Shown here in pieces: positions 23,865 through 34,059 of a stretch of 40,998 bases of DNA. Position 1 is the stretch's first letter. The number at the start of each line of letters is the position of its first letter. The notes beneath the pieces are model-generated. The model made no database searches, was not told the origin of the DNA, and was given only the letters and a program-made list of their open reading frames with translations. Both the position numbers and the translations under genes were made by a program. The stretch comes from a virus. Where the stretch lies: positions 1-40,998 of IMG/VR virus record IMGVR_UViG_3300032220_001177. The stretch is one strand, 5' to 3'.

Positions 23865-24509
23865 TTATAAATGACTTATATATTCACTTCCATCATCTAT
23901 AGGAGTTGAATCATATAAGCCTAATTCTTTTAAGCGTTCTTGAGTATATGAATCTATTTCCCAGTCTACTTTAGATTCATTTTTAGTTAAATGATCCTCT
24001 ATACCCTCTAATTGTTTTCCTGTAAATAAATCTCCCTGGTATAGGAAATAACAATTGTAACAAAGCATTTCTAGATTTTCAAGTCGATAATGTTGTTTGT
24101 TTCCATCTTTAAAATGCATTAAAAGCGGCATTTTATAGTCTAGTACGCGATGTTCATGAAAGCCACACGAATAGCATTCCTCTTTCATATAACCCTCTTG
24201 TAACAACTTATATTTAATTTTATTTGGATTAAAAGAAGATGGGTCAATTCTTCCTTCAATTAAATCTAATAAAGCAAAATCTTTTCTTGGGTTTCCATTA
24301 CTTAAAAATTTTGGAATACCTTTTCCACATTGGTTTTTATGTTGTTCAAATAGATTTTCATATCCTGGTTCTGTAGCTTCATACTGTTTAGCCCATTTTT
24401 TATAATGTATATAAGAAACATTCAAATACCTAGCACTCGCTTTATTAGATTTAGTTTTAGCCATTGCGGCTCTTATCATCTCGTGATTTAAAGGTTTAGC
24501 TTTAGGCAT
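23865..24509 (-). CDS. HNH-like protein with N-terminal helix-turn-helix
   Basis: Residues 10-42 (MIRAAMAKTKSNKASARYLN, then VSYIHYKKWAKQYE) resemble a resolvase-type helix-turn-helix. Residues 110-155 are HNH-like: CYSCG, PLLMHFKDGNKQHYRLENLE, LCYNC. Compared with active HNH enzymes (HHxDG...N...NCH) the second histidine of the pair is Phe and the final His is Tyr, so cutting activity is uncertain; it may be a DNA-binding regulator. The gene follows the next HNH gene after 1 nt. Confidence 0.75.
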   Translation of the reverse strand: MPKAKPLNHEMIRAAMAKTKSNKASARYLNVSYIHYKKWAKQYEATEPGYENLFEQHKNQCGKGIPKFLSNGNPRKDFALLDLIEGRIDPSSFNPNKIKYKLLQEGYMKEECYSCGFHEHRVLDYKMPLLMHFKDGNKQHYRLENLEMLCYNCYFLYQGDLFTGKQLEGIEDHLTKNESKVDWEIDSYTQERLKELGLYDSTPIDDGSEYISHL

Positions 24510-24510
24510 G

Positions 24511-25068
24511 TTATTTCTTTTTTCTTGTTCTGTTACTATTCTTTTCTAAAGGACGAGTATTAGTATAATGAAAACTCCCACCTTGGCTTAAAAGAATTAT
24601 GTGGTCTATTTCCCAATAAGTTCCATGATTATCCCAGTTCATATTTTTATCAAATTGTTGTTCTAAATATAATTTATATTCCTCAGGAGAACAACCTAAT
24701 ATTTCAAGCGTAGATTTTTCTTTATTTTTATATTGTGCTTTTAAAGCATGCCATATTCTAGTTCTAACTAATTGGAGTGCTTTTGATGATGGATTCTTTT
24801 TATAAAAGTTTCTAGTATATTCAAGCTTCTTTTCCATATTATCAGCATCATATTTTTTTTGATATAATGCTTTTTTTTCTTTGTATTTTTCTTGTTTAAT
24901 TAAATGTTTTTGTTTAAACTGATTATCTTGGTATTTTTCACCCCAATATATTTTATCTTGTTCTTTTTTACATGATCTACAAATACCCTTAGTACCACAT
25001 TTATTAATACTAGGTTTACGATACTCAGTTGAATCTTTTATTTCATTGCATCTGTTACATTTTACCAT
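24511..25068 (-). CDS. HNH endonuclease
   Basis: N-terminal CNRC and CRSC form a zinc module like that in the tRNA-cluster HNH protein. A long Lys-rich linker leads to LGCSPEEYKLYLEQQF and WEIDHIILLSQGG, HYTNTRPLEKNSNRTRKK, the H-N-N/H fold of phage homing-type endonucleases. The leader CAATATGTATAATAAAA upstream is nearly identical to that of the HNH gene at 12534, as expected for a mobile unit. Confidence 0.85.
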   Translation of the reverse strand: MVKCNRCNEIKDSTEYRKPSINKCGTKGICRSCKKEQDKIYWGEKYQDNQFKQKHLIKQEKYKEKKALYQKKYDADNMEKKLEYTRNFYKKNPSSKALQLVRTRIWHALKAQYKNKEKSTLEILGCSPEEYKLYLEQQFDKNMNWDNHGTYWEIDHIILLSQGGSFHYTNTRPLEKNSNRTRKKK

Positions 25069-26021: not shown

Positions 26022-26876
26022 TTAATAAATTTCATACTCAATTTCTGTATCTGAAAATCCCCAAGTATCTGGGTTAGTTGTTTGTTCAAACCATTCAACC
26101 CATTGCCAAGCATCATTATATGTTTGTTTTGAAGGTGAACTACCATCATTACCCATTCCCTTATGAGACATATGGTACAAAGGTAAATCATAAATATCTT
26201 TTAAATTATAACCTTTTAAAATTGCTTTTTTCTGTACATTAGTATCTTGAAAACAAGCATATAACATTTTTTCCTCAAATCCTTTAATATCTGTCCATAA
26301 ATCTTTATGTGCTAATTGAAAGTCACCACAACAATTTATTAAACTGTAATGATCATTTGGTGTAACCATAGCTGGTATTCTGCGTTCTTGAGAAATAGAA
26401 TCTAAAATATCTCTATATGATTTCCAATTTTCAAATCCATGTTTTTCAAGATCTTGAATTTCAAAATCTCTTCTAGATACTGTATAAAAAGTATTTTTAT
26501 CTGCTTTTGATAAAAATTCATGGAATTTATCCTTATTAGGAGCTATAATATCAATAGTTGTAACAACAATCCAATCAGCATCACATCGTCTCAACATTAA
26601 ATTAGACGAAATTACTTGAGTACATACTTGAGCTTTAGAATCATAGTTAGTTAACATCTTAGCAACATTTGAAGGAATAACCATATGTTTAAGTTTACCT
26701 GTTTTTGGAAATTTATCCTCAATATCCCACAATAATGGGTTTTTCCCCTCAGGTGAATTCCAATCTAAAAGAAAGACTTCATCAAAAGTATCAAGCATTG
26801 ATTTTAAACATACTAAGACACGTTCATCTTCTTTATATCCATCATTTCTTACATACAATAAAGCTGCTGTTTTCAT
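26022..26876 (-). CDS. Glycosyltransferase, GT-A type (284 aa)
   Basis: Start chosen at 26876 because that ATG overlaps the stop of the kinase gene (ATGA). MKTAALLYVRNDGYKEDERV and VLVCLKSMLDTFDEVFLLDW are the nucleotide-sugar-binding start of a GT2-like fold; DADWIVVTTIDI takes the place of the DxD region. C-terminal HMSHKG and a Trp-rich end suggest the acceptor side. Last gene of the glycan cluster. Donor and acceptor unknown. Confidence 0.7.
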   Translation of the reverse strand: MKTAALLYVRNDGYKEDERVLVCLKSMLDTFDEVFLLDWNSPEGKNPLLWDIEDKFPKTGKLKHMVIPSNVAKMLTNYDSKAQVCTQVISSNLMLRRCDADWIVVTTIDIIAPNKDKFHEFLSKADKNTFYTVSRRDFEIQDLEKHGFENWKSYRDILDSISQERRIPAMVTPNDHYSLINCCGDFQLAHKDLWTDIKGFEEKMLYACFQDTNVQKKAILKGYNLKDIYDLPLYHMSHKGMGNDGSSPSKQTYNDAWQWVEWFEQTTNPDTWGFSDTEIEYEIY

Positions 26877-27613
26877 ATTGTTGATACTCCAGATTTTTGA
26901 ATTACTATTGTTGTACATTCTTGAGCAAATTGAATTGCTTTATCTATATTTTTAGAACGAGCATATTCTATTACTAAACCTGAAAGGAAGGTATCGCCTG
27001 CTCCAGAAACATCTTTTACAGGAACATCAACTGTAGGATAATTTTTACCCTGGTAGTCACAGCCGTATTTGCCTCTAGTTACAATTGTTTTATTATTAAG
27101 AATAGGATCATTTTTTAATATTTCTTTATTTCGTTCGTACTCATGATAATTAATTTTAATAAAATCAATATTATGAACCCAATCACCTAATATTTTCTTA
27201 GTATCTAAAAATGTAGGACAATCGAATTTTTTAGAAATAATTTCTATATCTTCTTCATCTAAAAATCCTTTACAATAATCACTTATTATTATAGCATCGT
27301 ATTTTTTCCAATTTATTTTATCTAATACCTCTTGAGTAATTCTATCACACTTATCATTTTCATCTACTCGTAACAATAAATGATTATATTTAGAACAAAC
27401 ATATCTTATTTTATGGATTTCTTGTTTGTTAGTAATAAAATCAACTGTGTGTCCTAAAGCTTCTATGTTTTTAACTACATTTCCAGCCATTCCTGGGTTG
27501 GATGTTTCTCTTTCAGGAATAATGATAGGAACAGGTGCTTCTGGAGCTAATCTGTCTACTTTACCATATCTAAAAATATCTATACAACTATCTCCTATAA
27601 CTAATATTTTCAT
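26873..27613 (-). CDS. PfkB-family kinase, heptose-7-phosphate kinase-like
   Basis: The protein follows the N-terminal kinase domain of HldE/RfaE: VIGDSCIDIFRYGKVDRLAP and EAPVPI, NPGMAGNVVKNIEALG, and the catalytic DVSGAGDTF (GAGD at 204-207, Asp207 as base). At 246 aa it is shorter than the usual 310-330-aa kinase domain and lacks the cytidylyltransferase half. It would phosphorylate a sugar phosphate (heptose 7-phosphate in the known pathway). No heptose isomerase or nucleotidyltransferase is in this window. Overlaps both neighbours by 4 nt. Confidence 0.8.
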   Translation of the reverse strand: MKILVIGDSCIDIFRYGKVDRLAPEAPVPIIIPERETSNPGMAGNVVKNIEALGHTVDFITNKQEIHKIRYVCSKYNHLLLRVDENDKCDRITQEVLDKINWKKYDAIIISDYCKGFLDEEDIEIISKKFDCPTFLDTKKILGDWVHNIDFIKINYHEYERNKEILKNDPILNNKTIVTRGKYGCDYQGKNYPTVDVPVKDVSGAGDTFLSGLVIEYARSKNIDKAIQFAQECTTIVIQKSGVSTI

Positions 27614-28620
27614 CGTCTTAAAAATTTACGTCCTGAATTGACTTTATTTCTCCAATATTCTAACAAATCATTCATTGTTTGTTCAAATGTATATTCTGGG
27701 GCCCATCCTGTGTGGTTTATAAATTTAGATGTGTTTGGGATTTGTAAATCAGCATCGATTGGTCTTAAACGCTCAGGATCAGTTATAATCTCAATATTAG
27801 AAACTGTAGATTGACTAATTAAATAATTAAGCATATCTTCAATTTTACAAGTGTAAGTACCACCAATATTGTAATATTCTCCTCCTTGTGGATTAACAGT
27901 TACTAAAGCATGATAAGCACGAACGGCATCTCTTACATCAGCATATGTTCTTAATGAATCTAAATTACCAACATAGATTTTAGGTTCTTGTAAACCAGAT
28001 TCAATCATTGCTATTTGTTTAGCAAATGTTGATTCTGAAAATACATCACCACGTCTTGGTCCTGTATGGGTAAACATACGTGTAGTCATAATATTCATTC
28101 CATACGCTTCAGCATAATATCTACCTACTAAATCTGTTCCTACTTTTGAAATGGCATAAGGAGAAGCTGGGTGGAAGGTACATTCTTCATCAATTGGTAG
28201 TTTTTCTTTAGGGACTCTACCAAATACCTCACTCGATGCACATACATGCGTTATAGCGTTTTTATATAGTGATTTACGCAATGCTTCTAATAAGTTAGCG
28301 GTTCCCAATATATTTGTTTGAAGCGTTTCTATAGGCGCGTCAAAACTTGTTTGTGGATATGATTGAGCTGCTAAATGAAACACATAATCAGGTTTAGCTT
28401 TATCAATAGCTGTCATCAATGATGCTAAATCATTTAAATCTCCATAAATAAGTTCAATACGATCCTTTTTATTAATTTCTTCTGATAAATGTTCAATGTT
28501 TTCTAGGGAATCATTCCATCTAGCTAAACCATAAATTTTCCAATCTGTATTTTCTAATAAAAAGTCGGCTAAATGTGATCCAACCATTCCTGTTATACCT
28601 GTTATAAAAGCGTTAATCAT
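27610..28620 (-). CDS. gmd: GDP-mannose 4,6-dehydratase-like SDR
   Basis: Extended short-chain dehydrogenase: NAD(P) motif TGITGMVGSH (GxxGxxG, 8-14), SSEVFGR with Ser129/130, catalytic Tyr155 and Lys159 (YAISK), and THTGPRRGDVFSESTFAKQI, a substrate-binding segment typical of the GDP-mannose 4,6-dehydratase (GMD) family. The reaction makes GDP-4-keto-6-deoxy-mannose, the common precursor of GDP-fucose, perosamine and colitose. Related GDP-6-deoxyhexose reductases (Rmd) remain an alternative. Overlaps both flanking genes by 4 nt. Confidence 0.75.
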   Translation of the reverse strand: MINAFITGITGMVGSHLADFLLENTDWKIYGLARWNDSLENIEHLSEEINKKDRIELIYGDLNDLASLMTAIDKAKPDYVFHLAAQSYPQTSFDAPIETLQTNILGTANLLEALRKSLYKNAITHVCASSEVFGRVPKEKLPIDEECTFHPASPYAISKVGTDLVGRYYAEAYGMNIMTTRMFTHTGPRRGDVFSESTFAKQIAMIESGLQEPKIYVGNLDSLRTYADVRDAVRAYHALVTVNPQGGEYYNIGGTYTCKIEDMLNYLISQSTVSNIEIITDPERLRPIDADLQIPNTSKFINHTGWAPEYTFEQTMNDLLEYWRNKVNSGRKFLRR

Positions 28621-29564
28621 AAGTTTTCTTTATACCAATTTAAAGTTTTAATAATACCTGTATCTAAATCTGTTTCTGATTCCCATCCTAATTTTTCTTT
28701 GGCTTTGGTACAATCTAAAAACAAAGAAGTAGGGATTGTTGGTTTTGATAAGTCATGAACTACTTCTAAATTTTTACCTGAATGGGTAATAATTTTGTTA
28801 ACTACATCTTTGACTTTAACTGCTTTACCTACACCTACATTGAATAATTCATATGAATTTTCTTGTTTTTTAATAGCACAATCAACAAATTTAACTAAAT
28901 CTTCTACATAAAGTAAATCACGTGCTTCTTCTCCAGTTCCCCAAACATTAATTTTTCCATCAGTAGATGTCATAACTTTTGTAATAGTAGCTCCGAACAT
29001 GTGTGAACGTTCTAAATCATACTTATCATAAGGTCCATACATATTTGAATGTCTCATAACAGTATGTTTAGTTTTTTTTAAACGTGAGAAAAATTCACAC
29101 ATTTTTTCAACATAAATTTTAGTATTACCAACTCCAAAATATGTAGGAAATAATTCATCATTTCCATTAAAATCACCTTCTGCTAATGCATTTGAAGATG
29201 GTTGATACATTACTGTACAACTTGGGAATACAAAGTGTTCGATGCTTTGTTCATAACACTCTCTTAATAGTAAACTATTCATAACAGCATTATCTGTAAC
29301 ATGAATGTAAGGGCGGGTCATAATATCTTTAGCACCTGAGGTTGTTGCGGCAAATTGTAAAACAATATCTACATCTTGCAATACTTGTTTTACGGTTTCG
29401 GGATTGCGTAAATCCGCTTTAACCCATTCAACTCCATCATATCCTTCAAGTGCAGGACGATTAAAATGTACTGCTCTAATATTATAATTACCTTTTTGGT
29501 GGTAAAAGTCCAACAAGTTTCTACCAATAAAACCGGTTGCTCCACAAATTAATATACGTTTCAT
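28617..29564 (-). CDS. GDP-fucose synthase-like SDR lacking a canonical YxxxK
   Basis: NAD(P)-binding start CGATGFIGRN, then AATTSGAKDIMTRPYIHVTD (typical of GDP-fucose synthase relatives), PSCTVMY and RHSNMYGPYDKYDLE. At the position of the catalytic YxxxK the sequence is YFGVGNTKIYVEKM: the Lys (149) aligns, but the residue four before it is Val. The family likely performs epimerase or reductase chemistry on a GDP-4-keto sugar, but the changed residue makes the mechanism uncertain. Confidence 0.7.
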   Translation of the reverse strand: MKRILICGATGFIGRNLLDFYHQKGNYNIRAVHFNRPALEGYDGVEWVKADLRNPETVKQVLQDVDIVLQFAATTSGAKDIMTRPYIHVTDNAVMNSLLLRECYEQSIEHFVFPSCTVMYQPSSNALAEGDFNGNDELFPTYFGVGNTKIYVEKMCEFFSRLKKTKHTVMRHSNMYGPYDKYDLERSHMFGATITKVMTSTDGKINVWGTGEEARDLLYVEDLVKFVDCAIKKQENSYELFNVGVGKAVKVKDVVNKIITHSGKNLEVVHDLSKPTIPTSLFLDCTKAKEKLGWESETDLDTGIIKTLNWYKENL

Positions 29565-30247
29565 TTAAAATATTGTTTTAGTTTGTCAAATGATGATTTA
29601 TTATACTTTTCATCTAATTTAAATAAAGGATTTGGATATTCCACATTATTTTGGTAAGTATATTCACCTAATTTTGTTGTTGAGTTAAAATGTTTTTTAA
29701 CTTCTTTTAATTTTACTAAACCATTAGATACAAAATCTATAACTCCATTATATTTTTTATAATCTTTATGAATAAAAAATTCAACTAAATCATTCATTAA
29801 AATATAATTAAATTTAGATTCCCCCGAAAGACCTAATGAATCAATATTGGATAATAATTTTGTAGCATGGTTAGGTTTCATAGTATTTCCTAACATCATA
29901 GGACATCTTAGGATTAAATCACTTCCATCTAATAGTGTTTCAGAAAATCTTTTAAAATGAGCATACATTGAAGGATTTTCTTGATAAACATCTACTGTTG
30001 AAATATAAACAAAATTTTTATAATTTAATTTTTTAAGACGTTGAGTAAGAAATATATTATCATCTAAATATTTTTTATAATCAGTGATATCATTTTCTTT
30101 ATTAAAAGCACAATGGATTATAGTATCGTAATCCTTATCTTTAATAAGATTAAAATTATCTCTATCTAATCCTAATGAGTTAGGTAAATTTTCAAACAAA
30201 TATTTACCCAACCCACTATTAATTCCAGTTATTAAAAATCTTGACAT
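29561..30247 (-). CDS. Short SDR-family reductase or epimerase (228 aa)
   Basis: Starts FLITGINSGLGKYLFENLPN with a GxxxGxG-like nucleotide-binding loop, then IIHCAF, FVYISTVDVY and YAHFK (Tyr-x3-Lys). It resembles RmlD-type dTDP-4-dehydrorhamnose reductases and small NDP-sugar SDRs. At 228 residues it is shorter than the usual 280-330, mainly at the C-terminal substrate domain. A sugar 4-reductase role is possible. Confidence 0.6.
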   Translation of the reverse strand: MSRFLITGINSGLGKYLFENLPNSLGLDRDNFNLIKDKDYDTIIHCAFNKENDITDYKKYLDDNIFLTQRLKKLNYKNFVYISTVDVYQENPSMYAHFKRFSETLLDGSDLILRCPMMLGNTMKPNHATKLLSNIDSLGLSGESKFNYILMNDLVEFFIHKDYKKYNGVIDFVSNGLVKLKEVKKHFNSTTKLGEYTYQNNVEYPNPLFKLDEKYNKSSFDKLKQYFK

Positions 30248-31218
30248 TAGTGGTGTACAAAAGCGTTATAACGTTTATCTAAAATTTCTTTATTATTTAA
30301 AAACCATTCTGTGGTATTTTTAATTCCTTTATCTAAAGAAACTGAAATGTCAAATCCATAAGATTTAGCTCGTGTCATATCAAATAAACGAATAGCATCT
30401 CCACCTGGTTTATCTGTTAACCATTTTATTTCAAGATCTTTACCTGAGTGTTTAACAACCATATCTACTACTTCTTTAATTGAATATCCTTTACCTGAAC
30501 CTAGGTTAATTGGTTGAATAATTGAATTTTCAACAGCAAATAGCATACCTAAAGCAACATCATCAGCATGGATAAAATCACGAATTGTAGAACCATCCCC
30601 CCAAACTTCAAGTATATCATTTTCTTGTGCTTTACGAATAAGTGAAGGTACTACCATTGCGTTAGCAGGATTAAAATTATCATAATCACCATATACATTA
30701 GCTGGTCTTACAATTGATACTTTGTCCCAATCATATTGAATTGAATATGCTTCGGCCTGTAGTTCTCCCATACGCTTAGCCCAACCAGCAAAACGATCAT
30801 TTGGTGATGGAACTGTTGACCACACACTATCTTCTACAAACACTTCAGCAGGAGCATAAACACCTACTGAACTTGTATAAAGATACCATTTTACATTAGC
30901 TCGACGAGCTGCTTCCATCATGTTTGTATTAAACTGGAGCATAGGTACCATAAAGTCAGCAGGCTGTTCGGCGCACATTTTAGGAGATCCTTTAACGCCA
31001 ACAAGATTAAATACATAATCCATTCCATTACAGATATTTTCACATTGATCAAAGTAACGTAAATCTACTTTAATAAATTCAACACCTTTAGGAAGATCTG
31101 TAGGAACTGTTAAATCAGCTATTGTGATTTGGGCTTCCTTTTCTAATAGAAATTTTACTAAGGAACGTCCAATCATTCCTCCTCCACCTGTGACTAAAAC
31201 TTTTTGATTTTTAAACAT
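30247..31218 (-). CDS. NDP-sugar epimerase-like SDR with FAGWAK in place of YxxxK
   Basis: Clear extended SDR: VTGGGGMIGRSLVKFLL, TSSVGVYAP, VRPANVYGDYDNFNP and GDGSTIRDFIHADD. The usual YGWAK reads FAGWAK, so alanine occupies the catalytic Tyr position with Phe one residue before. GDP-fucose-synthase/GalE-like overall, 323 aa. Probably acts on the same GDP-linked intermediate as its neighbours; exact reaction unknown. Confidence 0.7.
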   Translation of the reverse strand: MFKNQKVLVTGGGGMIGRSLVKFLLEKEAQITIADLTVPTDLPKGVEFIKVDLRYFDQCENICNGMDYVFNLVGVKGSPKMCAEQPADFMVPMLQFNTNMMEAARRANVKWYLYTSSVGVYAPAEVFVEDSVWSTVPSPNDRFAGWAKRMGELQAEAYSIQYDWDKVSIVRPANVYGDYDNFNPANAMVVPSLIRKAQENDILEVWGDGSTIRDFIHADDVALGMLFAVENSIIQPINLGSGKGYSIKEVVDMVVKHSGKDLEIKWLTDKPGGDAIRLFDMTRAKSYGFDISVSLDKGIKNTTEWFLNNKEILDKRYNAFVHH

Positions 31219-32383
31219 TATTTAATTTTTTACAAAGATTAACAATTTGTTCTTCAGTTAAATCAGTATGATTACCAACATAAAGAGCATTATCGTGAAT
31301 ATAATCAGCTTGAGCTAATACTCCACTTATTTTGTAAGTGAATTTTTTAAGATAAGGTTGACGTGCTTGGTTACCACCACCAGCAGTACCTAAACGATAT
31401 TCAACACCTTCATTTTCTAAAACATTACAAACATCTTTAAGTTTATCACGAGTACTTCCTTGCATTACAAGAGGTAAAGCAAAATTACTACTTCCGGATG
31501 TTTTAAAACCTGTAATGAATTTGGCAGAATCAAGATTATTTAACCAAATATGTAAATTTTCGGTTCTACGTTTTATATTGTTATCAATGCGTTTCATCTG
31601 CTCAATACCGAGGACGGCGTTTAATTCACTGCTTCGCATATTAAACCCAGCTACAGCGAATGTAAACAATGGATTTAAATCAGGACACATTAGTTGATAA
31701 TCACGTTGTAATTCTTGTGATGCCTCTCTAGTCATACCGTGTGAACGAAACAATTTAGCTAAATCATATAGTTTATCATCATTTACACAAATAGTACCAC
31801 CTTCAATAGTAGTAATGTGGTGTCCAAAATAAAATGAAAATAATGAAATATCACCAAATGAACCTACTTTTTTATCTTTATAAGTAGCTCCATGAGCTTC
31901 ACAACAATCTTCAATCAATATAATATTACGTTCTTTAGCAAACTGAATTAATTCATCACTAATACCATTAAAACCTAATGTATGAACTAATACAATGGCT
32001 TTTGTATTTGGGGTAACTGCATTTTTTATATTTTCAAAAGTGATATTAAAATCATTCATTGAAACATCTACAAATACAGGAGTCATACCTAACTGAGCTA
32101 CTGAAGATATGTCTGAAACCCAACCAATTGGGGGAACGATTACTTCTCCAATACCAACTAACTCTTTAACCATTGCTATAGAAATAAAATTAGCAGATGC
32201 TCCTGAATTAACCATTACTGAGTGTTTAACTCCTAGCCATTCTGACCAAATTTTTTCAAATTCTTTTACTTTAGGTCCATTCGTAAAACGTTCACCATTT
32301 AAACAAAAATCTGCTAAAATTTCTCTATCACTTTGAGTGATATTGTCATTGATAAGAGGCCAAGTATAATTATTTGCTGCCAT
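31211..32383 (-). CDS. DegT-family PLP enzyme with Lys-to-His change (ColD-like 3-dehydratase)
   Basis: DegT/DnrJ/EryC1 fold: VNSGASANFIS, EDCCEAHGAT, GSFGDISLFSF. The expected PLP-binding Lys before (I/L)TxxEGG is His188 (FYFGHHITTIEGG). The same replacement characterises ColD (GDP-4-keto-6-deoxy-mannose 3-dehydratase) and the RfbH/E1 group; RfbH is longer and carries an iron-sulfur site, while this 390-aa protein matches ColD in size. Start chosen at ATG 32383, not the GTG nine bases upstream. Expected product: a GDP-4-keto-3,6-dideoxyhexose. Neighbours supply the GDP-sugar precursor. Confidence 0.8.
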   Translation of the reverse strand: MAANNYTWPLINDNITQSDREILADFCLNGERFTNGPKVKEFEKIWSEWLGVKHSVMVNSGASANFISIAMVKELVGIGEVIVPPIGWVSDISSVAQLGMTPVFVDVSMNDFNITFENIKNAVTPNTKAIVLVHTLGFNGISDELIQFAKERNIILIEDCCEAHGATYKDKKVGSFGDISLFSFYFGHHITTIEGGTICVNDDKLYDLAKLFRSHGMTREASQELQRDYQLMCPDLNPLFTFAVAGFNMRSSELNAVLGIEQMKRIDNNIKRRTENLHIWLNNLDSAKFITGFKTSGSSNFALPLVMQGSTRDKLKDVCNVLENEGVEYRLGTAGGGNQARQPYLKKFTYKISGVLAQADYIHDNALYVGNHTDLTEEQIVNLCKKLNNV

Positions 32384-32900
32384 AAAATTCACTATGTTCG
32401 ATAATTAAAAATGATTTGTCACTATTATAAGCTTTTTCAAATGCTGGAAAGATTTCTTCTGGTTCCATTAACTCGATTACTTCTACTTCGGTAAGCATTT
32501 TACGCATTGCTTCAGTATGGTTTTGAGTATGTTGAGGACCTGCACTAAAAGGTACTTTAGAACCTACAGCTACACGAATAATAACTTTAGGATTCATTTC
32601 ACCTTTAGACATATCTTTTATTTTATCAAGATGGTTAACCAACTGATTAAAAGATAAAATGAAAAAATCAAATCTTGGGTAACAAGTAATTGGAACCCAA
32701 CCTGTCATAGCCATACCTGTGGCCATTCCTAATTGTGTTTCTTCAAATACAGGTAATTCGATTCTTTTATCCTGAGGTACATTAGCCATTGTGTTTGAGA
32801 TGGCATGTCCACTCATTCCAATAGCCTGGCCTGTAAATACGGTATCTGGTTTAGTTGCCAGATATTCCATTGCTCTAACTAATTCGTCTTTATATTTCAT
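32370..32900 (-). CDS. Thiamine-diphosphate enzyme, E1-beta/transketolase Pyr-domain subunit
   Basis: 176 residues covering only the Pyr domain: DTVFTGQAIGMSG, ELPVFEETQLGMATGMAMTG with the conserved Glu (53/54) that activates the cofactor, and CYPRFDFFILSFNQLVNH, then ISAGPQH-like SAGPQHTQNH. The C-terminal transketolase domain found in normal E1-beta or transketolase C-subunits is missing. It pairs with the next gene upstream to form the active site at a subunit interface. In this context a carbon-carbon ligation onto a keto sugar is plausible (inference). Confidence 0.75.
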   Translation of the reverse strand: MKYKDELVRAMEYLATKPDTVFTGQAIGMSGHAISNTMANVPQDKRIELPVFEETQLGMATGMAMTGWVPITCYPRFDFFILSFNQLVNHLDKIKDMSKGEMNPKVIIRVAVGSKVPFSAGPQHTQNHTEAMRKMLTEVEVIELMEPEEIFPAFEKAYNSDKSFLIIEHSEFYGSK

Positions 32901-32904
32901 ATTA

Positions 32905-33531
32905 TTAAAAATTAACCCATTTGCCTGTTCCGTGGTGTGGATAAGACATTTTATATTGATAGTAAATTACATTTTCTGGAGCATCCATTCGTTTACCCCA
33001 AGCTACGTCTGTTGGTGTGTGAACACTTAAATTATTATCTTCAACTACAAACTGAAGTGGAAGATTAAAGTTTTGAGAGTATTTATATGCTTCATGGAAT
33101 ACTCCTGTTTCCATTGTCATATCTCCAATAAAACACCAAACACGACGAGGTGAATTAGAACGTTTCAAACCCATAGCAGCACCTAAAGATAAAGGTACAA
33201 TACCTCCTACAATAGATGAAGCATAAAAATTAGGTTTTAAATTATTTGTCCCCATACTTCTACCTTCACTAATCCATTCAAACAACTTTTCAGAATCAAC
33301 TCCATGTAGTAAAGCATGATAGTGATTTCTCCAAGCTGAAAAGACCCAATCATCTGGGTGGATGTATTGGAAAAGTTCAATTAATTGGTTTTCATTATTT
33401 TTAGACAAATGGACAGGTCCTTTAATTTGTCCATCTTCATAAGCATCTTTTACTCTATCTTCAAAGGCTATAAGTTCTTCAGGTGTAATTTTTACATCTT
33501 GAACTTTGGTGTAGTGTTTTGGTATATTCAT
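32905..33531 (-). CDS. Thiamine-diphosphate enzyme, E1-alpha-like PP-domain subunit
   Basis: The diphosphate- and Mg-binding motif is intact: GDMTMETGVFHEAYKYSQNF and later VVEDNN, i.e. GD (136-137) to NN (166-167) with normal spacing. SSIVGGIVPLSLGAAMGLK is the E1-alpha-type helix before it. At 208 residues it is much shorter than normal E1-alpha (320-370). Stop is 4 nt before the Pyr-domain gene. Together they make a minimal two-subunit enzyme similar in plan to those that add two-carbon branches to sugars. Confidence 0.75.
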   Translation of the reverse strand: MNIPKHYTKVQDVKITPEELIAFEDRVKDAYEDGQIKGPVHLSKNNENQLIELFQYIHPDDWVFSAWRNHYHALLHGVDSEKLFEWISEGRSMGTNNLKPNFYASSIVGGIVPLSLGAAMGLKRSNSPRRVWCFIGDMTMETGVFHEAYKYSQNFNLPLQFVVEDNNLSVHTPTDVAWGKRMDAPENVIYYQYKMSYPHHGTGKWVNF

Positions 33532-33567: not shown

Positions 33568-34059
33568 TTATTTATCACGTCCTTGTAAAATAGGATTATC
33601 AATAGGCCATTCAATTCCTAATTCAGGATCATTCCATTTTAAAGTAAATTGATCTTTAACATCTGGATAATCACCTGGATAAGACCATTTATAATGGAAT
33701 ACAGAATGATCACTCATTACACAAAATCCATTACCAAATCCTGGGGGGAGTAAAACTGATTGTCTTTTTTTATCAGTAAGCATCATACTCATCCAATTTT
33801 TGTAATTAGGAGATTCAGGTCTATTATCAACTACTACAAAGTATAATTCACCATATAAACACTCAATTAATTTCCAGGATTTGCTATCACCATGAATACC
33901 TCTCAAAACATGTTTACGAGAAGTTGATGCTTTATCGTGATTAAAATTTAATTGGGGTAAAAATTCTTCTTGTTTCCATAATGTCCATAATTCTCCTCTA
34001 AAATCATAATAAACATCATGTGTATAAACTTTTACGTCTGGGTGGGTTGTAATTTTCAT
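33568..34059 (-). CDS. rmlC: RmlC-type NDP-4-keto-sugar 3,5-epimerase
   Basis: Cupin-fold RmlC family: RKHVLRGIHGD with catalytic His56, KLIECLYGELYFVVVDNRPE, SVLLPPGFGNGFCVMSD, and HYKWSYPGDYPDV. Length (163 aa) fits the compact members of the family. It would epimerise C5 and/or C3 of a 4-keto-6-deoxy sugar. In this cluster the substrate is probably a GDP sugar rather than the dTDP sugar of the rhamnose pathway, an inference from the GMD- and ColD-like neighbours. Overlaps the GT10-like gene by 4 nt. Confidence 0.85.
   Translation of the reverse strand: MKITTHPDVKVYTHDVYYDFRGELWTLWKQEEFLPQLNFNHDKASTSRKHVLRGIHGDSKSWKLIECLYGELYFVVVDNRPESPNYKNWMSMMLTDKKRQSVLLPPGFGNGFCVMSDHSVFHYKWSYPGDYPDVKDQFTLKWNDPELGIEWPIDNPILQGRDK

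Follow-up and report, generated by a model that had tools for sequence, protein, structure and literature searches.

E1-type enzymes of the alpha-KADH2 group use pyruvate to attach C2 branches to keto sugars (PMC12247030), and for two of these systems, AviB1/B2 and Pau11/12, installation of a C4 acetyl branch has been proposed (PMC4753412). YerE, the branching enzyme for yersiniose, is a single three-domain chain resembling acetohydroxyacid synthase (AHAS) and acts on CDP-3,6-dideoxy-4-keto-glucose (PMC12247030). In Campylobacter jejuni HS:5, a 4,6-dehydratase, a pyridoxal phosphate (PLP) 3-dehydratase and an RmlC-like epimerase make GDP-3,6-dideoxy-4-keto-heptose, which has an m/z of 600.08 (PMC10440746); that pathway ends with a C4-reductase, and no thiamine diphosphate (ThDP) enzyme has been reported in it. 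Here we analyse a linear virus record of 40,998 bp from IMG/VR (IMGVR_UViG_3300032220_001177; “the window” denotes this whole stretch), in which two adjacent genes of a sugar cluster encode a minimal ThDP enzyme. We put at about 0.7 the probability that this pair is an E1-type carboligase that adds an acyl branch, probably of two carbons, to a GDP-4-keto-(3,6-dideoxy)heptose, with a short-chain dehydrogenase/reductase (SDR) acting on the product.

The first gene of the pair (32905-33531, minus strand) encodes a PP-domain subunit of 208 aa, and the second (32370-32900, minus strand), 4 bp away, a Pyr-domain subunit of 176 aa. Both exceed the curated Pfam cut-offs, the former for E1_dh (PF00676, 1.7e-14) and the latter for Transket_pyr (PF02779, 1.7e-10). 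Among sequence relatives in the PDB, PP resembles the pyruvate dehydrogenase (PDH) and branched-chain E1-alpha subunits, and Pyr resembles E1-beta. The alignment with PDH E1-alpha runs across the GD...NN motif, predicted to bind Mg and the ThDP diphosphate (G136-D137 ... N165-N166; 33034-33126, minus strand), the GDG of PDH being GDM here; Pyr aligns with E1-beta through the catalytic Glu, which is E53 (codon 32742-32744, minus strand). D137, E164, N166, S169, P198 and H199 of PP are invariant in 66 homologues, as are E53 and H124 of Pyr in nine. By sequence the pair has the two features of the ThDP superfamily, a PP domain with the GDx...N(N) Mg motif and a Pyr domain with the catalytic Glu. 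The original prediction had described two adjacent genes of these lengths with motif and Glu intact and the third domain missing, and this observation of a minimal split ThDP pair is confirmed.

Transketolase_C (PF02780) has no match anywhere in the record, which as a fragment limits the search for a separately encoded third domain; the same profile was positive in 14 of 14 control genomes. Supply of the missing domain from elsewhere in the record was rejected on this result. Neither chain matches TPP_enzyme_N, TPP_enzyme_M or TPP_enzyme_C, the domains that YerE-like branching enzymes carry on one chain, and the transketolase set of Transketolase_N, Pyr and C-terminal TKC domain is incomplete, E1_dh and Transket_pyr alone being above cut-off. 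Like the alpha-KADH2 enzymes (KbDH-alpha/beta, AviB1/AviB2, Pau11/Pau12), for which acyl transfer to a keto sugar is proposed, the pair places an E1-alpha-like PP and an E1-beta-like Pyr domain on separate chains in a deoxysugar pathway (by sequence for both, by fold for PP). Unlike them, its chains are single domains, with no TKC domain at the C-terminus of the E1-beta-type chain (Pyr is only 176 aa) and no E1-alpha C-terminal region, and the pair is viral with a GDP-heptose as its predicted acceptor.

An AlphaFold2 model of PP (pLDDT 91.7) superposes on human PDH E1-alpha with a Z-score of 20.6 and a root-mean-square deviation of 2.7 Å, 198 residues being aligned to chain residues 19-271. 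Because the alignment stops at about human residue 271, PP ends at the phosphorylation loop, without the rest of E1-alpha, and because 198 residues span 253 chain positions, PP is also shortened internally. The C-terminal region of E1-alpha is therefore absent in addition to the third domain. A natural PP-Pyr fusion of 400 aa from a relative (locus L034), which shares 71% identity with the fused relative of locus L033, was predicted with a pLDDT of 93.7 and a pTM of 0.94; its model aligned with single transketolase chains over about 350 residues, up to about residue 523. The split-gene transketolase of Carboxydothermus (6YAK) is likewise a ThDP enzyme from two genes, but it belongs to the transketolase family, its C-chain retains the TKC domain and its PP match is weaker (Z 15.3). 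In sulfopyruvate decarboxylase ComD/ComE, of the decarboxylase superfamily, PP and Pyr domains stand alone on two short chains; the window pair differs in matching E1_dh and Transket_pyr. A viral fold search gave no match below an E-value of 0.001, and the Campylobacter phage ‘transketolases’ from that search were set aside, as no relation by sequence could be detected in the phage collection. Origin of the pair by chance or frame error was rejected by hundreds of homologues with the same ends and by low dN relative to dS (0.08-0.36 vs 0.76-1.56 in comparable pairs).

What sugar does the cluster make? The window is a viral locus, with phage-type genes in its first part, and not a bacterial O-antigen cluster. 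The sugar cluster occupies about 26-41 kb on the minus strand and is transcribed in the order RmlC-like, PP, Pyr, ColD-like, SDR 30247-31218, SDR-like 29561-30247, SDR 28617-29564, DmhA-like and kinase. The pair, which had been placed directly after the ColD-like enzyme, is indeed its neighbour but is transcribed before it. The DmhA-like 4,6-dehydratase (27610-28620, minus strand) best matches Campylobacter GDP-heptose 4,6-dehydratase (7us5, 6.4e-109, 367 bits vs 148 for GMD). The RmlC-like cupin (33568-34059, minus strand) is of the GDP-4-keto-heptose 3,5-epimerase type, scoring 146-155 bits against C. jejuni GDP-4-keto-heptose epimerases vs 91 against RmlC. The ColD-like protein (31211-32392, minus strand) scores 199 bits against ColD (2gms, 1.5e-57) vs 159 against the CDP-type dehydrase, and has His in place of the PLP Lys (SFYFGHHITTIEGG); the same replacement was found in 39 of 39 homologues examined, and a Lys-type aminotransferase reading was rejected on that count. 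It is probably a GDP-4-keto-6-deoxyheptose 3-dehydratase. Since the matches to DmhA and the heptose epimerase are far better than those to GMD and RmlC, a GDP-hexose (colitose-like) pathway was rejected for the window, and the sugar of the cluster is, judging by homology, a GDP-heptose and not a hexose.

By homology, then, the window encodes the 4,6-dehydratase, the PLP 3-dehydratase with His for Lys and the RmlC-like epimerase of the C. jejuni HS:5 GDP-3,6-dideoxyheptose pathway. It differs from that pathway in that no close C4-reductase was found among the two SDRs searched and that the ThDP pair is present. These two Fcl-like SDRs are only distant from MlghC/DdahC (7anh/7anc), the heptose C4-reductases: SDR 30247-31218 reaches 70 bits and SDR 28617-29564 50-54 bits against the C. 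jejuni enzymes, and other SDRs score higher. Clade-2 phages instead carry a close 6vo6 relative (373 bits), which we take to be a Cj1427-type GDP-heptose C4-dehydrogenase. Such C4-dehydrogenase activity on GDP-heptose has been described (PMC10680097). Each route, by DmhA or by the C4-dehydrogenase, is predicted to give a GDP-4-keto-heptose.

A ThDP enzyme of some kind accompanies ColD almost without exception. We ran reciprocal scans with ColD, DmhA and C4-dehydrogenase profiles, the ColD set comprising 53 dereplicated viral loci of at least 12 kb each. A ThDP enzyme is present in 52 of the 53: 38 loci carry the minimal pair, 12 a full E1-alpha/beta, one an acetolactate-synthase-like enzyme and one a split transketolase; one has none. 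Minimal pair and full E1-alpha/beta never occur together in this set, and the full form lies where the minimal pair otherwise stands, with RmlC on one side and ColD on the other. The full-E1 loci also have genes for DJ-1/PfpI, for a cupin and, in most cases, for a HAD-like protein of 128 aa (HAD by reading; no Pfam match). In one of them (L117, 4676-8005) and some 30 similar loci these form, with E1-alpha and E1-beta, a cassette between RmlC and ColD; the L117 chains have 277 and 303 aa, and the C-terminal ~130 residues of its E1-beta give no Transketolase_C match. Two loci taken at first to be ColD loci without a ThDP enzyme proved otherwise: L187 has an acetolactate-synthase-like enzyme immediately beside ColD and L176 a split transketolase/DXS-like enzyme. 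The remaining locus, L189, combines GMD, ColD and an SDR with no ThDP enzyme found, and is read as a colitose-like hexose cluster because its GMD is a true one (498 bits). YerE and the other branching enzymes of the decarboxylase superfamily are comparable to the window pair in that their substrate is a 3,6-dideoxy-4-keto nucleotide sugar and a ColD/RfbH-type dehydratase is adjacent (predicted here); YerE differs in being one chain acting on a CDP-hexose, against two chains in the window. It is a YerE-related type that replaces the minimal pair in L187.

PP/Pyr or E1 genes were also present in 43 of 48 DmhA loci and 50 of 61 C4-dehydrogenase loci. Since the loci are fragments, absence from a locus is not absence from the phage: in L232, a DmhA locus scored without them, a PP gene lies just beyond the examined stretch (L232/G001, 4.3e-100), and L242, another such locus, has a split transketolase. 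Across the phage clusters, four ThDP architectures are exchanged for one another. One phage locus (L343) holds three ThDP kinds, namely the minimal pair, an acetolactate-synthase-like enzyme and a transketolase C-half. Heptose clusters repeatedly contain radical-SAM-type proteins of about 500-520 aa, often close to ThDP enzymes other than the minimal pair (L176, 4185-5717; L242, 5647-7197; L187, 3541-5061; L027; L028), and that of L176 matches B12-binding radical-SAM families.

Does anything else in the cluster change with the ThDP type? For 60 ColD loci (48 minimal, 12 E1) we counted changes of ThDP type along each gene tree and compared them with shuffled labels. The ColD, DmhA, RmlC and kinase trees require 8, 9, 8 and 8 changes, a nearly random pattern (shuffled means 11.2, 10.2, 11.0 and 9.7, respectively), whereas the tree of the Fcl-like SDR 30247-31218 (minus strand) requires one, the shuffled minimum being 9. 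With all contexts included (131 PP, 15 E1) this tree again shows a single change (shuffled minimum 12). Within the ColD loci, the second SDR, of the 28617 type, also changes little, with 2 changes in 21 rows (shuffled minimum 3). In the examples read, the SDR motif is GIK[CA]SP in E1-type loci and G[VIL]KGSP in minimal-type loci, the window having GVKGSP; in L232 the motif predicted the PP gene that was then located. Because ColD sits between the ThDP genes and the SDR, simple linkage would have held ColD with them too. Label shuffles ignore relatedness; comparing different genes within one set of loci controls better for this. The ThDP enzyme and SDR 30247-31218 form a matched pair, and the upstream enzymes are common to both ThDP types.

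Shared upstream enzymes together with a matched ThDP/SDR pair suggest a common 4-keto acceptor, branching by the ThDP enzyme and an SDR acting on the type-specific product. In the mechanism we propose, the PP and Pyr chains would assemble as in E1 and transketolase, presumably as a PP2Pyr2 tetramer, with ThDP-Mg bound at the PP/Pyr interface. A 2-oxo acid, most likely pyruvate, would be decarboxylated and the acyl carbanion equivalent joined to the 4-keto group of the GDP-heptose, which in the window would be GDP-3,6-dideoxy-4-keto-heptose. This acceptor would be supplied by the heptose kinase, host isomerase, phosphatase and GDP-transferase, the DmhA-type 4,6-dehydratase and the ColD-type 3-dehydratase in turn, the RmlC-like epimerase setting C5 of the heptose. 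SDR 30247-31218 may then reduce or otherwise process the branched product, and glycosyltransferases of the cluster would place the sugar in a host-surface or virion glycan. The original prediction of an E1-like pair branching a 3,6-dideoxy keto sugar is partly supported: it was right in kind, as co-occurrence, slot exchange and SDR co-variation indicate, and wrong in the sugar, a GDP-heptose and not a hexose.

Close relatives of the pair were found in at least 20 viral contigs, most of which share the gene order. A profile scan gave at least 487 related stretches in viral contigs, of which 80 were kept, vs at least 10 in genome contigs; as both counts are lower bounds, their ratio is a rough guide only. 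For the majority of PP genes, a Pyr gene lies on the same strand, either next to them or at a distance of some kb. A tree divides the family into two subfamilies. Subfamily B, to which the window belongs, has at least one of DmhA, C4-dehydrogenase, RmlC-type epimerase and ColD in 73 of 77 loci. Subfamily A comprises the fused forms together with others that neighbour SPASM radical-SAM genes in archaea, bacteria and a 735-kb phage genome. Its radical-SAM-linked pairs (L024, L029, L030, L032 and L035; archaea, Deltaproteobacteria and the 735-kb phage genome) lack 4-keto-heptose genes and possibly have a different function. In another arrangement of cyanophages, a Prochlorococcus contig and a Parcubacteria contig (L022, 7969-11731; L023; L033; L034), a zinc alcohol dehydrogenase precedes the fused PP-Pyr gene and a heptose-type kinase lies in or near the cluster. 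Both window proteins match phrog_34187, in its two halves. The cyanophage S-SM2/P-TIM68 ‘transketolase central region-containing protein’ of that family has the same two domains, with PP 42-45% identical, but they are fused in one 402-aa chain that is accompanied by alcohol dehydrogenase and a heptose-type kinase and not by ColD, DmhA or the RmlC type. Our literature search did not find a phage ThDP enzyme or branched-sugar enzyme. On the best reading, the minimal pair represents a new, largely viral, minimal variant of the E1-type sugar carboligases.

Several points weigh against the proposed branching of a GDP-4-keto-heptose. None of nine subfamily A loci (fused cyanophage-type and radical-SAM-linked) has 4-keto-heptose genes, and the family is therefore not bound to one acceptor; 11 of the 61 viral C4-dehydrogenase loci have neither PP/Pyr nor E1; and the co-variation test relies on 12 E1-type loci, perhaps from few lineages. 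The whole family is known from sequence, context and models, from which we infer the activity, the donor, the C4 branch point, the branch length and the final glycan, and gene context does not distinguish a C4 adduct from one elsewhere.

The main rival, which we consider unlikely, is a transketolase-like pair from which the heptose pathway would receive sedoheptulose-7-phosphate or a comparable ketose phosphate. Most contexts are heptose-related, a kinase is present in 23 of the 77 and five of the nine loci, and fused-type loci adjoin kinase, nucleotidyltransferase and phosphoheptose-isomerase-annotated genes. The fused model does resemble transketolase, but PP is closest to E1-alpha, not to transketolase, in both sequence and fold. 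If the pair supplied sedoheptulose-7-phosphate, its type would be expected to follow the kinase and not the SDR, but the E1 type shows no link with the kinase tree (8 changes vs a shuffled mean of 9.7) and does show one with a single SDR. Moreover, the pair is exchanged with E1-alpha/beta and AHAS-like enzymes, neither of which are ketose-phosphate enzymes, and the colitose-like ColD cluster has no ThDP enzyme.

It is also quite improbable that the pair is a carboligase of the same pathway that joins carbon elsewhere, for example lengthening the C6-C7 side chain, or that draws on a 2-oxo acid donor with a longer chain or a hydroxyl group. The YerE-like ErwE takes longer hydroxylated donors (PMC12247030). 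In the phage sugar clusters of L187 (5086-7984) and L072 (8184-10768), a PanB-like ketopantoate hydroxymethyltransferase stands beside the acetolactate-synthase-like ThDP enzyme and might provide a hydroxylated 2-oxo acid of the kind that ErwE takes as donor. PanB is, however, tied to the AHAS-type loci, no donor-making enzyme stands beside the minimal pair of the window, and E1-type enzymes known so far yield C2 branches. Very improbable is a metabolic host-takeover E1 unrelated to sugar, such as an acetoin-type enzyme or a pyruvate decarboxylase: E1 enzymes usually pass their product on to E2 components, but no E2 or E3 genes are seen in the sugar cluster of the window, the position in the sugar operon is constant across diverse phages, and the pair co-varies with a sugar SDR. 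Least probable is that the ThDP fold is decayed or non-catalytic and serves as a scaffold, for although domain III and part of the PP domain are lost, the cofactor and catalytic residues are invariant, dN is low relative to dS and both genes are retained together.

Three further genes of the cluster, all on the minus strand, are an HldE/RfaE domain-I-like heptose-phosphate kinase (26873-27613; TIGR02198, 1.2e-39), a second SDR of the epimerase/dehydratase family (28617-29564; PF01370, 1.5e-38; no close solved relative) and a degenerate SDR-like protein (29561-30247) that matches PF01370 at 1.2e-4 only and is kept in close relatives. The kinase has a short N-terminus, its 246 aa facing 315 positions of the HldE domain-I model, and the same shortfall is seen in relatives. 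Near the sugar cluster (23865-25068), two Cys/His-rich open reading frames resemble HNH endonucleases.

Taking the family as a whole, we lean slightly towards the view that a phage-centred group of small E1-type enzymes makes 4-C-branched heptoses, including nine-carbon 4-C-branched 3,6-dideoxyheptoses, through a swappable ThDP step with its own reductase. If so, 4-C-branched heptoses from viruses would be a class of nucleotide sugars for which we found no description in the literature, and the defined enzyme set would make the sugar testable in vitro from GDP-heptose. The pair would be a natural ThDP carboligase cut to its two essential domains, a small and possibly ketone-accepting biocatalyst, and a natural test of the purpose of the third domain. 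A large set of phage genes now labelled ‘transketolase’ or unknown (phrog_34187) would likewise gain a function.

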